Source of the DNA: a virus
Virus record (IMG/VR): IMGVR_UViG_3300007770_001284
Coordinates: 186,001 to 250,000 of that record
Reading direction: 5' to 3' (one strand)
DNA length: 64,000 bases
This document shows positions 42,165 through 64,000 of the stretch, in pieces; position 1 is the stretch's first letter; every line of letters begins with the position of its first letter. Made by a program: the position numbers and the translations under genes. The notes below the pieces were generated by a model. That model saw nothing but the letters and a program-made list of their open reading frames with translations, ran no database searches and was not told where the DNA came from.

Positions 42165-42509
42165 TGGTGGAGGCGGCGGGAGTCGAACCCGCGTCCAAAG
42201 CAGTTTAGGGATCAAGTCATTCACAGGTTTAGACAGTTTTTCTAAACTGACAAATCTTCCGCTGGTGAAACCCCCCTGCTCGCGGATACAAGGTTCGAGC
42301 ATTATTTTATTTCAGTGATGCTACTTCACTTAGCCTAAATTGGATAGATGGTTTTAGGCAACCACCCGATTACGCAGCTAGGGCGTATTCGAAGTGATTG
42401 TTGTTATTGGCAACTATCTTTTTTGAAACCGCGATTTAGGTCTGCTGTTTCCTGAGACCACCTGCACTCTTATACTCCTTTGCTACCCTGTCGAAGCCAT
42501 ATCGCCCCC
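42165..42509 (-). ncRNA. ssrA: tmRNA
   Basis: A 345-base tmRNA is read on the minus strand. Its 5' end GGGGGCGATATGGCTTCGAC and 3' end with TGGACGCGGGTTCGACTCCC and encoded CCA pair as a seven-base acceptor (one G-U). The tag frame after TAGTT begins at GCC and reads A-N-N-N-N-H-F-E-Y-A-L-A-A stop (+ strand 42370-42411), ending in the ALAA degron. tmRNA rescues stalled ribosomes with SmpB, which is not in the window. It lies upstream of the FtsZ-like gene. A phage-carried complete tmRNA is uncommon. Confidence 0.95.
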
Positions 42510-58035: not shown

Positions 58036-58350
58036 ATGTATGTAAGAGATGCAAACGTTGGTGATGTGATTCGTGTTGTCGGTGATAATAAGGGTGTTCG
58101 ACAAAGCATTTTTCGTATATCACAAGAAGAAAGAGACGAAGCGCGTAAGCATGGTTTTATGATTGGATTTGTTCGTCATTTCTGGAAAGGTAATCCTGAC
58201 AAGCCATATGACATGGTATATCTTGGTCCAGTAAGCACAAGGATTCCCGTGGCTGGCCTTTTTAAACATCATTTATTTTTGACTCCAGATGGTACGTACG
58301 GGATAGAGGGATATGACTTTCGATATTTGGAGAAAATTACAGGGCGATAG
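58036..58350 (+). CDS. Hypothetical protein ending inside a tRNA gene
   Basis: The 104-residue protein has barrel-like strands (DANVGDVIRVVGDN) and mixed content. An ATG with AGGG upstream is preferred to an earlier start within the previous gene. Its last codons and stop (TAG) lie inside the following tRNA. The function is unknown. Confidence 0.6.
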   Translation: MYVRDANVGDVIRVVGDNKGVRQSIFRISQEERDEARKHGFMIGFVRHFWKGNPDKPYDMVYLGPVSTRIPVAGLFKHHLFLTPDGTYGIEGYDFRYLEKITGR

Positions 58351-58418
58351 CTCAATTTGGTCAGAGCAACGGTCTCATAAACCGTGGGTTCCGGGTTCAA
58401 GTCCCGGTCGCCCTACCA
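58341..58418 (+). tRNA. tRNA with anticodon CAT (Met or lysidine-type Ile)
   Basis: A perfect seven-base acceptor (AGGGCGA with TCGCCCT), D-arm GCTC/GAGC, anticodon loop CTCATAA and T-arm TTCAAGT are all present, with encoded CCA. The anticodon CAT decodes AUG unless its C34 is changed to lysidine, when it becomes an AUA-reading tRNA-Ile. The gene for tRNA-Ile lysidine synthetase follows eight bases later, favouring Ile. The loop alone does not distinguish the two. Confidence 0.92.
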
Positions 58419-58425
58419 CTTAAAA

Positions 58426-59049
58426 ATGATTAGACTATCAACGAAATTACCACGCAGGCTAGCGATTGCTGTCTCGGGTGGACCTGATTCAATGGCAGCT
58501 CTAGATTTTCTTTCACGAAGCAACAAAGAAATTCTGGTGTTGCACTTTAATCACAACACCCACCATGCGCAAAGTGCTGAAAATGTAGTATCTGATTATT
58601 GCGGCTCTAAAAGCATTCCCCATATAATTGGTGGCCTCAAAGAGGCCGTTCCTCCCGGCATGTCTAAAGAAGACTTTTGGCGGAAGGCTCGCTACGATTT
58701 TTTTGAGCGTGAGGCGGGTGATTTGCCTGTTGTTACGTGTCACCACCTTGATGATGTTGTAGAAACCTGGCTGTTTACGGCTTTCCATGGAGAGGCTAGA
58801 TTAATCCCATCGAAGCGCGGAAGGTATCTGAGGCCGTTTCTAGAGACGAGAAAGGCAGTGTTTGAGGACTGGTGTGACCGAAAGGATGTGCCATACGTAA
58901 TAGATTCAAGTAATTTCGATATTTCTTTTATGAGAAATTATATTAGACATGAAGTCGTACCGAAAGCCCTTATGGTTAATCCAGGGTTGCCAAAGGTCCT
59001 ACGAAAAAAGATTGTGAATAATCCTGTAATATTTACAGAAGCTGTTTAG
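58426..59049 (+). CDS. tilS: tRNA(Ile)-lysidine synthetase-like protein
   Basis: The 207-residue protein has the N-type PP-loop SGGPDS (17-22), VLHFNHNTHHA, KEDFWRKARYDFFE and HLDDVVETWL of the TilS catalytic domain. It should change C34 of a CAT tRNA-Ile to lysidine using ATP and lysine. The C-terminal tRNA-binding domains of full TilS are absent, as in some short forms. The start was set past the tRNA; a longer reading begins inside the tRNA and is false. Confidence 0.9.
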   Translation: MIRLSTKLPRRLAIAVSGGPDSMAALDFLSRSNKEILVLHFNHNTHHAQSAENVVSDYCGSKSIPHIIGGLKEAVPPGMSKEDFWRKARYDFFEREAGDLPVVTCHHLDDVVETWLFTAFHGEARLIPSKRGRYLRPFLETRKAVFEDWCDRKDVPYVIDSSNFDISFMRNYIRHEVVPKALMVNPGLPKVLRKKIVNNPVIFTEAV

Positions 59050-59071
59050 ATTTATCTTCAAGGGAGAAACA

Positions 59072-59263
59072 GTGGGTTCAAAAACGGAGCGTCAAAATCA
59101 GCACATTAAGCGGATTGAAAAGAAGATTAGAAAGTTTACAAAAAGGGGTAAGTCCACAGAGAGGCTCACAAAAGAACTTGGTTATATGATGGGTGAAGAC
59201 AGGCCTGAGTTTAAGACAGGCCGCGATGTCGATCCCAGACTAAAGAAGACATGGCAAAATTAG
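59072..59263 (+). CDS. Small basic protein
   Basis: The 63-residue protein is Lys/Arg-rich and helical (HIKRIEKKIRKFTKRGKSTE). GTG start after AGGGAG. It may bind nucleic acid. No family recognised. Confidence 0.5.
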   Translation: MGSKTERQNQHIKRIEKKIRKFTKRGKSTERLTKELGYMMGEDRPEFKTGRDVDPRLKKTWQN

Positions 59264-59275
59264 GAGTGAAGAAAA

Positions 59276-59422
59276 ATGGCAACAAATAGAATTACAAATG
59301 TAGCACAATCGTTATCTAGCGTGCGTGATGACGCTAGTAAACTTAAACGGCTTGTTTATGTGGTGTGCTTAATTGAATTACTGCATGTCGGCTGGTCTGT
59401 TTTTACTTACTTTTCCAGCTGA
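59276..59422 (+). CDS. Small membrane protein
   Basis: The 48-residue frame (starting MATNRITNVAQSLSS) has a polar helix then a hydrophobic helix (RLVYVVCLIELLHVGWSVF). It starts 12 bases after the preceding stop, with GGAGTGAAG upstream. The function is unknown. Confidence 0.5.
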   Translation: MATNRITNVAQSLSSVRDDASKLKRLVYVVCLIELLHVGWSVFTYFSS

Positions 59423-59434
59423 TTGCCTAATTTG

Positions 59435-59510
59435 GGGCCGTTAGCTCAACAGGTAGAGCAAAAGACTTTTAATCTTTAGGTTCAGGGTTCGAGTCCCTGG
59501 CGGCTCACCA
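59435..59510 (+). tRNA. tRNA-Lys (TTT)
   Basis: Acceptor GGGCCGT pairs with GCGGCTC, with a D-arm GCTC/GAGC, anticodon loop CTTTTAA and T-arm TTCGAGT. Encoded CCA. It reads AAA/AAG. Confidence 0.95.
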
Positions 59511-59552
59511 CTACTAATTTTTTGTAGCATAATTATGACTAGAACACAAAGA

Positions 59553-59625
59553 TGGGGTGTAGCATAATTGGCAGTGCACCGGGTTGTTACCCCGGAGGTT
59601 GGTGGTTCGAATCCACCCGCCCCAG
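59553..59625 (+). tRNA. tRNA-Asn (GTT)
   Basis: Acceptor TGGGGTG pairs with CGCCCCA, D-arm GCAT/GTGC, anticodon loop TTGTTAC and T-arm TTCGAAT. CCA is not encoded (discriminator G is followed by CCT), so it needs a CCA-adding enzyme. Confidence 0.93.
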
Positions 59626-59634
59626 CCTTGGTAC

Positions 59635-60492: not shown

Positions 60493-60993
60493 TTGCGCAT
60501 ACGCTTGCCAAAGATATCAAACGCTATGCTACTGTGGTGGCTCTGCTTCTGCACGATGCTTGTGGGAGCTGAGCTGGCGTATGTTTACGGGCTTCTCCAG
60601 GAAATTATGATGAATGATGTAACAAGGATTACATTCATCGTCGCTGCGATTCTTGTGTGGCAATCGATCGCTTGTGGGATTGAAATCGGGAAGACAAGGT
60701 TTTCATGGGACCTCGGAAAACCAAATCCCACTTTAGAGCGCGGGTGGTTTTTTAGTGACATCGTACTTTCTCTTGGAATGATAGGCACCGTTGTTGGGTT
60801 CATGATGATGCTGGCTGGTTTTGCGACATTAGACTTTTCTGATATTGAAGCTGCACAAGAGATGGTCGCTCGTTTGGGCGCCGGGATGGCAACTGCGCTG
60901 TCTACAACTCTCACTGGGCTAATAGCAAGTGTTCTTTTAAAGCTTCAATTTTTTATGCTTGAGCGAACACTGGAGCGTGAGGAGCACGGGTGA
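60493..60993 (+). CDS. MotA/TolQ/ExbB-like proton channel subunit
   Basis: The 166-residue protein has three transmembrane helices (LLWWLCFCTMLVGAELAYVY, ITFIVAAILVWQSIACGI, then a helix with IVLSLGMIGTVVGFMMML and GMATALSTTLTGLIASVLL). The GMIGTVVGF and GMATALSTTLTGL motifs match the MotA/TolQ/ExbB family, including ZorA of Zorya. It should build a proton-driven stator with the next gene product. TTG start after AGGGG. Confidence 0.85.
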   Translation: MRIRLPKISNAMLLWWLCFCTMLVGAELAYVYGLLQEIMMNDVTRITFIVAAILVWQSIACGIEIGKTRFSWDLGKPNPTLERGWFFSDIVLSLGMIGTVVGFMMMLAGFATLDFSDIEAAQEMVARLGAGMATALSTTLTGLIASVLLKLQFFMLERTLEREEHG

Positions 60994-61601
60994 GACGCTC
61001 GTATCATTCTAACCTGGCATTTTTAGACGTACTTTTTAACACGCTTCTATGCTTTGTTGTATTTTTTGTTATTGCGTTGATCTTCATGCAAAGGGAAGAT
61101 ACCTCAGAGGCCGATGTTGAGCTGTCTGCTTATGTCATTATTGTTGCCAGTTGGCCAGGTGAATATGATGATGATGTAGATTTGTACGTTCGTGATCCTC
61201 GGGGCGAAGTTGTTTTCTTCCGTCAGATGAATAATTCTGTGATGCATTTAGATCGTGATGATCTGGGCACTCACTATGATAATCCAAATTACGACACAGT
61301 CGATACAGCTGCTGAACCAGAAAATCGAGAGATTGTAATGATTAGAAGAAAGATTCCTGGCGAGTTTATTGTTAATGCGCACATGTACAATAAAGTGACA
61401 GATGACCCAATCCCTGTCCGCGTAACTGTTTATCGTATCTCTCCACGTAAGGAGATTGCTGATACTATTTTAATGTTTACGTATCGTGGACAAGAAGAAA
61501 CGGTCTGCAGGTTTACCATAGATTCTGGCGGAAAGATTTTAGACATCAATGACCTGCCCCATGTGATTGCAGGAGAAATCCTTCATGGCGGATATTATTA
61601 A
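60990..61601 (+). CDS. ExbD/TolR/MotB-like partner with DUF2135-like domain
   Basis: The 203-residue protein has one N-terminal membrane helix containing Asp13 in AFLDVLFNTLL, aligned with the proton-carrying Asp of ExbD/TolR/MotB. The periplasmic part has DVDLYVRDPRGEVVFF, like DUF2135-type domains, instead of an OmpA peptidoglycan-binding domain. GTG start overlaps the MotA-like gene by four bases, and the next gene overlaps its stop. Confidence 0.8.
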   Translation: MRRSYHSNLAFLDVLFNTLLCFVVFFVIALIFMQREDTSEADVELSAYVIIVASWPGEYDDDVDLYVRDPRGEVVFFRQMNNSVMHLDRDDLGTHYDNPNYDTVDTAAEPENREIVMIRRKIPGEFIVNAHMYNKVTDDPIPVRVTVYRISPRKEIADTILMFTYRGQEETVCRFTIDSGGKILDINDLPHVIAGEILHGGYY

Positions 61602-62119
61602 TGAGTTTCTTAGTTTATCTAACCATCGTATCTATTTGCGTCGCGGTTTGTTTGGTACAGTCAAATTTGCACCAAGCGTTGAAGGTAATGCTTGTTGTTG
61701 TATTAATGCACGGTTACCTGACAGCTTTTTCTACGTTTAGGGACGTGAGCGGCTATCCAACACAGGCTGATTTACCTGAAGAATTTGAAGTGGTGTGGGC
61801 TCGAGCAGTTGAAATACCTCAGAACGATGTTAAGTTTATAGAGCTGTGGGTGGCTTATGATTTTTCTTTTACTGAGGTGTGGATAAGTCGATTTTCTCTG
61901 GCACACAGAAAAGATTCACTATCAAGAGTTTATAGACTTCCTTATTCACAAGAGAATCATGAGTTTGTTCTTGAGATGCAGCAAGCAATTCAATTGGGCA
62001 AGCAGATGAAGCTATCTTTTCAAAATATTTCAATGGATGAGAAAATCGATTTACGAGAAGCAGCACAGAATTACGCGATTAACCACGAAGAGTGGGTCAT
62101 TAGTAAACAATCCAAATAA
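61601..62119 (+). CDS. Membrane protein, third member of proton-channel operon
   Basis: The 172-residue protein has two N-terminal membrane helices (FLVYLTIVSICVAVCLV, LKVMLVVVLMHGYLTAF) and a soluble alpha/beta part (FEVVWARAVEIPQNDVKFIEL). Its ATG overlaps the preceding stop. It is probably a partner or regulator of the proton-channel pair. No family recognised. Confidence 0.65.
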   Translation: MSFLVYLTIVSICVAVCLVQSNLHQALKVMLVVVLMHGYLTAFSTFRDVSGYPTQADLPEEFEVVWARAVEIPQNDVKFIELWVAYDFSFTEVWISRFSLAHRKDSLSRVYRLPYSQENHEFVLEMQQAIQLGKQMKLSFQNISMDEKIDLREAAQNYAINHEEWVISKQSK

Positions 62120-62180
62120 TATGTACAAGCATAGTAAACCTATTATTTATTAATTGGTTGATAAAACCAAGGAGCGAAAC

Positions 62181-62489
62181 ATGTTTACTATATTGGCTGC
62201 ATTTTGTCTGGGGTGTGCAACACACGCACATACACACCACAGGACCCCCCCTCCACCGACTCCGAAACCGTCAGTTTCGGTATCTGTGAATTGGGCATGG
62301 GTCGATGCACACTGGTCTCACGGCGTTCGAGTTAAGTCTCACTGGGCTCATCCCCACTATGGGAAGTCCTATCGTTCACGGACTGTAGGTCCACCCCCAC
62401 CTCGTCCCCACATGGGGGCCCATTGGGAACCTGGACATTGGGAAAGACGCGGCCACCGTAGAGTATGGGTGGCAGGCCACTGGTCGTAA
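62181..62489 (+). CDS. Secreted YXWGXW-type protein
   Basis: The 102-residue protein has a short hydrophobic leader with a possible lipobox (FCLGC) and a His/Trp/Pro-rich mature part ending in the YXWGXW-style repeat PGHWERRGHRRVWVAGHW. The start was chosen by AAGGAGCG before this ATG. Its role in the envelope is unknown. Confidence 0.6.
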   Translation: MFTILAAFCLGCATHAHTHHRTPPPPTPKPSVSVSVNWAWVDAHWSHGVRVKSHWAHPHYGKSYRSRTVGPPPPRPHMGAHWEPGHWERRGHRRVWVAGHWS

Positions 62490-63332: not shown

Positions 63333-63408
63333 GCCTCCTTAGCTCAGTGGATAGAGCACCGGCCTTCTAAGCCGTAGGTCGCAGGTTCGAATCCTGCAGG
63401 GGGTGCCA
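63333..63408 (+). tRNA. tRNA-Arg (TCT)
   Basis: Acceptor GCCTCCT pairs with AGGGGGT (two G-U pairs), D-arm GCTC/GAGC, anticodon loop CTTCTAA and T-arm TTCGAAT, with encoded CCA. It reads AGA/AGG, which is common in this A/T-leaning genome. Confidence 0.95.
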
Positions 63409-63427: not shown

Positions 63428-63586
63428 ATGGCAAGGAATTTTTTAAGCTCAAGTAGGTTTAGCTTGTTTTGTGCGGTCTTGAATGTCGCATTTGCCCTAC
63501 AGGCGTTTTCACACGGTAGCTGGATATTTGGAGCGATTTGCACAGTTTTTGCATGCCTTTGCTTTAGCAATTACAAGCGTGCATAA
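63428..63586 (+). CDS. Small membrane protein
   Basis: The 52-residue frame (starting MARNFLSSSRFSLFC) has two hydrophobic helices. GGAGAAG precedes its ATG, and its stop overlaps the next start. The function is unknown. Confidence 0.55.
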   Translation: MARNFLSSSRFSLFCAVLNVAFALQAFSHGSWIFGAICTVFACLCFSNYKRA

Positions 63587-64000
63587 TGAAAAATAGGTTC
63601 GTCATTTTCTGTGGTCCGATGTTCGGCGGAAAGACGTCGAAGTTGCTCAGCGCGATCGATCGATACAGTTATCAAAAAAGAACAATCCTCGCGTTTAAGC
63701 CCTGCGTTGATGATCGGTATGACAATAATTCCATTGTTACTCACACTGGCGGAAATGTCGCAGCAGCTGTCGTTGACAATGGTGAAGACATCCTTGCTAG
63801 CGTAGAGATCTTTACTTCCCCCATCGTGATTGCGGTTGATGAAGCTTTCATGATACCCGGCTCGGGAAAAGCTTTGGTTGAGCTCTACAACCGCGGTCAC
63901 ACTATACTAATTTCGAGCCTCCAGCTTTCTTCTAGCGGTGAGGCCTATGGTGAAATTGCGCAGATGATGCCATACGCAACAAAGATCGAAATATGTCCCG
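63586..64000 (+). CDS. tdk: Thymidine kinase, cut by the window end
   Basis: The first 138 residues have the P-loop GPMFGGKT (10-17), the DEAF-type motif VDEAFMI and ISSLQLSSSGEAYGE, which is the thymidine-binding region of type II thymidine kinases. The C-terminal zinc ligands lie beyond the window. It salvages thymidine to dTMP with ATP. The start overlaps the preceding stop codon. Confidence 0.9.
   Translation, partial: MKNRFVIFCGPMFGGKTSKLLSAIDRYSYQKRTILAFKPCVDDRYDNNSIVTHTGGNVAAAVVDNGEDILASVEIFTSPIVIAVDEAFMIPGSGKALVELYNRGHTILISSLQLSSSGEAYGEIAQMMPYATKIEICP

Follow-up and report, generated by a model that had tools for sequence, protein, structure and literature searches.

Three overlapping genes, encoding a MotA/TolQ/ExbB-family channel subunit (A), a one-helix partner with a DUF2135-like periplasmic domain (B) and a third membrane protein (C), were identified in a 64,000-nucleotide stretch of DNA from a giant phage (hereafter the window; positions 186001-250000 of a virus record of 254,743 bases in total), and the same set is found in many other phages and bacteria. 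By analogy with the known ion-driven machines, we consider it probable (about 0.6) that the trio forms a self-contained MotA/TolQ/ExbB-type motor in the inner membrane, which would alter or maintain the host envelope in infection.

All three open reading frames reported for positions 60493-62119 in a preliminary description of this DNA are present on the plus strand. Gene A (60493-60993, 166 aa) begins with TTG, an alternative in-frame ATG at codon 12 making its exact N-terminus uncertain; gene B (60990-61601, 203 aa) begins with GTG, and gene C (61601-62119, 172 aa) with ATG. The start/stop overlaps said to join them can be read directly: GTGA between A and B (4 nt, 60990-60993, plus strand) and TAATG between B and C (1 nt, 61601, plus strand). 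Pfam names A alone of the three; NCBIfam, PADLOC and PHROGs gave no proper assignment for the trio, with no credible PHROGs family for A, B or C, and no paper describing it was found in the open-access literature searched.

The proposed affiliation of A with MotA, TolQ and ExbB was borne out in two ways. First, the window protein scores above the gathering score of Pfam MotA_ExbB (PF01618; E 1.4e-8, 34.9 vs 22.9 bits). Second, in a PDB profile search the profile of A relatives matches solved MotA, PomA, TolQ, ZorA and ExbB chains, with LGLIGTViG aligned to GMIGTLVG of PomA and AlytTLvG to ALLTTLYG. The corresponding motifs of window A are LGMIGTVVG, containing Thr99 (codon 60787-60789, plus strand) and aligned with GMIGT of PomA/MotA, and ALSTTLTG, containing the near-invariant Thr139 (codon 60907-60909, plus strand) and aligned with ALLTTLYG of PomA; we take both threonines to be channel-lining positions, as in the MotA/TolQ/ExbB families. 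Thr139 is kept in 98% of 65 viral A proteins. Across 69 A proteins from viruses and bacteria, G98 and G142 never vary, and D42, G95, G102, G131, A135 and T139 are nearly invariant, the last at 90% or more; overall, the key glycines and the threonine show 90-100% conservation. Four hydrophobic segments were found in window A, which ends about 10 residues past the last of them and has no long cytoplasmic tail. Phage A proteins comprise about 140-170 aa, those of most bacterial loci about 215-275 aa with larger cytoplasmic regions, the bacterial lengths resting on uncertain start codons.

For subunit B, an AlphaFold2 model (pLDDT 88.8) predicts a membrane helix at residues 8-35 (61011-61094, plus strand) followed by a beta-sandwich, and a single hydrophobic segment is present in 98 of 100 B proteins. 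Asp13 (codon 61026-61028, plus strand), which corresponds in position to the ion-carrying Asp of MotB, TolR, ExbD and ZorB, lies inside this predicted helix, as the preliminary description had it, and is invariant both in 65 distinct viral B proteins and in 100 mixed viral and bacterial ones. Loss of the channel residues among homologues, which would speak against a channel pair, was thus seen neither at Asp13 nor at Thr139 of A.

The periplasmic domain of B (residues 46-190; 61125-61559, plus strand) carries the W..D.DL.V..P.G and PG.Y motifs of DUF2135 (YfaP). Residues D13, W55, D62, D64, L87, R89, D90, D91, G93 and E114 are invariant in 100 aligned B sequences, so that five invariant acidic residues are present besides Asp13; that they bind calcium would be a guess. 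The label "DUF2135-like" holds at the profile level (hhalign of the domain against a DUF2135 protein: 81%, E 1.2e-5) but not at that of Pfam, where window B falls under the DUF2135 (PF09906) gathering score; a bacterial homologue in genome G384 barely exceeds it at its B gene (22.3 vs 22 bits). Unlike B, the DUF2135 protein used in the comparison has no channel helix at the position of B's helix. The best fold matches of the model are of the TerD type, known from tellurite-resistance and stress proteins (Z 12.0, 10.5 and 10.0, later matches being near 6), the VIA-align superposition on 3ibz covering 148 residues at 4.5 A with Z 12.0; a Foldseek search returned nothing at E 0.001. Homology of B to TerD (PF02342) was considered but not supported, as profile comparison was non-significant (hhalign 0.7%, with a reversed control run) and the fold match stands alone. 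The domain is accordingly modelled as TerD-like in fold, and TerD homology is not claimed.

Protein C is divergent in sequence; two hydrophobic segments are nonetheless present in 89 of 94 relatives. Lys/Arg content of the loop between them is above that of both flanks in 52 of 90 cases and below one flank in 10, and because of this positive loop between the transmembrane segments the C-terminal tail is predicted, by the positive-inside rule, to be periplasmic. The structure model of C (pLDDT 80) has no convincing structural match; an OB-fold-like identity was suggested by weak matches alone (best domain matches with Z about 5) and was not used. The architecture originally proposed, with an ion-channel pair, a periplasmic domain other than OmpA and a third membrane protein, is supported by these results.

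In about 12 distinct contigs (loci L017, L043, L045, L047, L197, L198 and L201-L208), all from a single clade of marine phages, a lysozyme is fused to C. In L017 and L045, Pfam detected the Phage_lysozyme domain at the C-terminal end of C (E about 1e-50), and the GH24 catalytic E/D/T pattern is present in all the fusions. As the lysozyme is joined to this end of the protein, the tail of C would be located at the cell wall. An ATG or GTG codon, preceded by a purine-rich Shine-Dalgarno-like sequence, occurs at the lysozyme boundary in every fused gene examined (boundary start codons were listed for L017, L043, L045, L047, L197 and L202-L208); since a start codon is kept there, free lysozyme may be an additional or even the main product. 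In L028, a close relative, C is unfused and a separate lysozyme gene is located 5.5 kb downstream.

Several other features of the window were noted. Directly downstream of C, a small His/Trp-rich protein is encoded at 62154-62489 (plus strand), which has W..GHW repeats and may contain a lipobox (FCLGC); it is a possible fourth partner of the trio. Genes for tRNA-Met(CAT), tRNA-Lys, tRNA-Asn and tRNA-Arg are located at 58341-59627 and 63333-63408 (plus strand). The first is followed immediately by a PP-loop (TilS-like) gene (58384-59049, Pfam ATP_bind_3 1.8e-33), and the two could represent a phage-encoded tRNA-Ile2 lysidine system. A tmRNA gene with the tag peptide ANNNNHFEYALAA is predicted at 42165-42509 (minus strand), and a thymidine kinase gene (63586-63999, plus strand, Pfam TK 8.5e-19) continues past the window end.

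The same gene order, which the preliminary description had suggested seeking in other phages, recurs in more than a hundred other viral sequences. A first scan of IMG/VR, with 81 loci examined, revealed A in all 81 and C in 76; a second one, based on a different alignment, yielded 304 B relatives, of which 80 were kept. Among 150 viral loci with B, A is present in 147 and C in 148, in the order A-B-C and on one strand; the three loci missing A are at contig ends, as is one gap in C. Failure of the genes to co-occur, named at the outset as an observation that would undermine the trio, was therefore not encountered, the three being together almost without exception. When identical B sequences were removed, 110 distinct loci remained, in 107 of which A occupies position -1 or -2 from B, with C just downstream; this grouping is far beyond chance. 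Homing endonucleases or tiny genes lie between the trio members in several Rhizobium phages, without dispersing the set. By tblastn, window B was detected in 27 Rhizobium/Sinorhizobium phage records, with at least 80% query cover in each, and its matches there were mostly annotated as hypothetical among those listed. Of the three proteins, B alone appears conserved enough for such a search, since window A and C as tblastn queries gave no match in phage records.

The next commonest neighbor of B is a ClpP-like protease, encoded a few genes upstream in 28 of the 110 loci (for instance, L043:2399-2980), and a phage ClpS adaptor gene adjoins C in L018 (7445-7747). In 16-3-like Rhizobium phages, a gene just ahead of A encodes a trypsin-like peptidase that seems to have a signal sequence (20/110 loci; L060:4531-5259, L004:3247-4146, L005:3577-4224, and L007:3093-3803). 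In 11 viral loci, including L052:7203-8174, a gene for an SbmA/BacA-like peptide transporter is located no more than a few genes away from the trio. In Pootjesviridae and in marine T4-like contigs the trio is located among DNA-metabolism, ClpP and similar genes.

The initial characterization of the trio as phage-encoded is true but incomplete, as the same operon occurs on many bacterial chromosomes; it follows that the trio was not invented for phage biology. In Azospirillum replicons B was detected by tblastn, with A and C adjoining, and a scan of GTDB contigs gave 185 B relatives, 80 of which were kept. All 80 of these loci contain A and 78 contain C, in the order A-B-C except for L147, where C precedes B; no further gene family neighbors B across lineages. 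Single loci show variations: in L195 (335-2810) A and B are accompanied by two C genes in tandem, and only in L164 and L166 is C followed by a lipoprotein-like gene. Among sampled genomes, the B profile found a match in 35 of 289 from Alphaproteobacteria (E below 1e-50) and in 27 of 229 from Gammaproteobacteria (E up to 1e-20), about 12% of each; these fractions are estimates, since sampling was centered on genomes already known to carry the trio and kinship was undisclosed. In Azospirillum, 21 of 45 genomes possess the family, most of these in two copies, and a genus-wide core-gene role is not supported. The trio is hence not a general housekeeping motor, being missing from most species and from 24 of 45 genomes even in this genus.

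Viral and bacterial sequences are interleaved in the tree of B, with three label changes, at least two of which are forced by well-supported branches. The 16-3-like temperate group sits among the bulk of the bacterial sequences, and six bacterial sequences, several of them from low-GC genomes, fall inside the marine and T4-like group. The root of this tree is arbitrary, and the direction of transfer is not readable from it.

The known functions of ion-driven 5:2 motors are motility, Ton and Tol transport, gliding, secretion and Zorya defence. The trio shares with MotAB/PomAB the A motifs GMIGT..G and ALLTTLYG and the one-helix partner with a membrane Asp; however, it includes the third gene, B is DUF2135-like and was not matched by an OmpA-like domain, and no flagellar genes are found among its conserved neighbors. 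Similarly to Tol-Pal, it consists of three inner-membrane genes, with a TolQ-like channel subunit and a third protein that has a periplasmic domain, but the sequence of the B domain is not TolR-like, and C has two transmembrane segments, whereas TolA has one. TolB and Pal are not conserved neighbors of the trio in bacterial loci. Against TIGR02796 (TolQ), bacterial A proteins score 13.9-16.4 bits compared with a cut-off of 221, far from the TolQ equivalog level, and no match is listed for window A. The ExbB-ExbD-TonB system likewise combines a proton-channel-type pair with a third membrane protein; the trio differs in that its C is not TonB-like by family profile and that no TonB-dependent receptor is among the conserved neighbors. 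At the level of family profiles, no TolR-, TolA-, ExbD- or TonB-type match was obtained for B or C; a more distant relationship to these proteins may exist.

The resemblance to Zorya, also raised in the preliminary description, holds for the transmembrane core of A and is limited to it. This core matches ZorA models (PADLOC, E 1.2e-6) and solved ZorA, and B, like ZorB, has a membrane Asp. The trio differs in three respects: A has no long cytoplasmic ZorA tail; B has a DUF2135-like domain instead of an OmpA-like peptidoglycan-binding one (by Pfam, NCBIfam and PADLOC); and no ZorC, ZorD or ZorE-like effector is encoded among the conserved neighbors. Both the tail and peptidoglycan binding were reported to be important for Zorya (PMC11890865). 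By the features tested, the trio is not Zorya, nor is it Tol-Pal or Ton as far as family profiles and conserved neighbors show. These differences weigh against a role in superinfection exclusion or anti-phage defence, in which the motor would sense that an incoming phage has damaged the envelope and act against it in the manner of Zorya. Such a role is suggested, apart from the ZorA-like core, by the patchy distribution, which would fit an accessory system; by the carriers, which include both lytic and temperate phages, with the trio close to the immX genes in the 16-3 genome; and by the DNA-metabolism surroundings in Pootjesviridae, compatible with early expression. On the other hand, some chromosomal copies look vertically inherited, judging from the two copies recurring about 24 kb apart in the A. 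brasilense group and from the upstream gene common to ten Granulosicoccaceae/Chromatiales-type loci. Altogether, we regard exclusion or defence as possible but unlikely; effectors for such a role are not recognizable.

A lysis module is quite improbable in our estimation; here the channel would help to trigger or power lysis, for instance, through collapse of the proton gradient or activation of a tethered muramidase. The fusion of C to lysozyme agrees with a lysis role, and a GH24 lysozyme gene is located 3-6 kb from the trio in several 16-3-like temperate phages and 5.5 kb downstream in L028. However, most loci have no GH24 lysozyme, the sole endolysin family scanned there, in the stretch read, and the 254,743-bp phage record itself has no match to Phage_lysozyme or Peptidase_M15_4, the two families sought. 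Placement in a lysis cassette as a general rule is not supported by the gene locations, the trio of Pootjesviridae and marine T4-like contigs being found instead with DNA-metabolism and ClpP-type genes, and lysis would not explain why it is kept on many chromosomes; the chromosomal copies and the gene locations together make a general lysis role unlikely. Finally, a non-motor use of the MotA/ExbB fold, whether to leak ions or as a static scaffold, to which the minimal phage A without the large cytoplasmic regions of its bacterial counterparts might point, is very improbable, as the ion-path residues Asp13 of B and Thr139 of A are kept almost without exception and a partner with a periplasmic domain is present throughout.

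For the ion-driven motor that we favor, analogy with the characterized systems suggests how it would be assembled and in what stoichiometry, which ion would drive it, what would move, and what it would act on during infection. Five copies of A would enclose the paired helices of a B dimer and form the channel, and protons (or sodium ions) flowing past Asp13 of B and the threonine ring of A would cause B to rotate or shift. This movement would then reach peptidoglycan or the outer membrane by way of the DUF2135-like domain of B and the periplasmic part of C, and during infection the trio would most likely alter or maintain the host envelope. Bacteria carry the trio as a chromosomal operon; phages appear to have obtained or exchanged it on more than one occasion, and a muramidase has been added to it in one marine clade. 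Against a motor acting on the envelope, the periplasmic domain of B is not among the known peptidoglycan binders, the lysozyme fusion is restricted to a single clade with a start codon kept at its boundary, and most species lack the family. We suggest only tentatively that the trio represents an undescribed class of ion-driven envelope motor, shared by bacteria and phages, with three subunits and a DUF2135/TerD-fold output domain, in which the muramidase attached to C by some phages would allow the motor to position or gate cell-wall cutting.

If this is true, a further motor class with its own periplasmic output domain would constitute a new envelope machine, and the trio would give phages a means of performing mechanical work on the host envelope. 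As it is carried by cultured Rhizobium phages, including the classical temperate phage 16-3, its role is directly testable.
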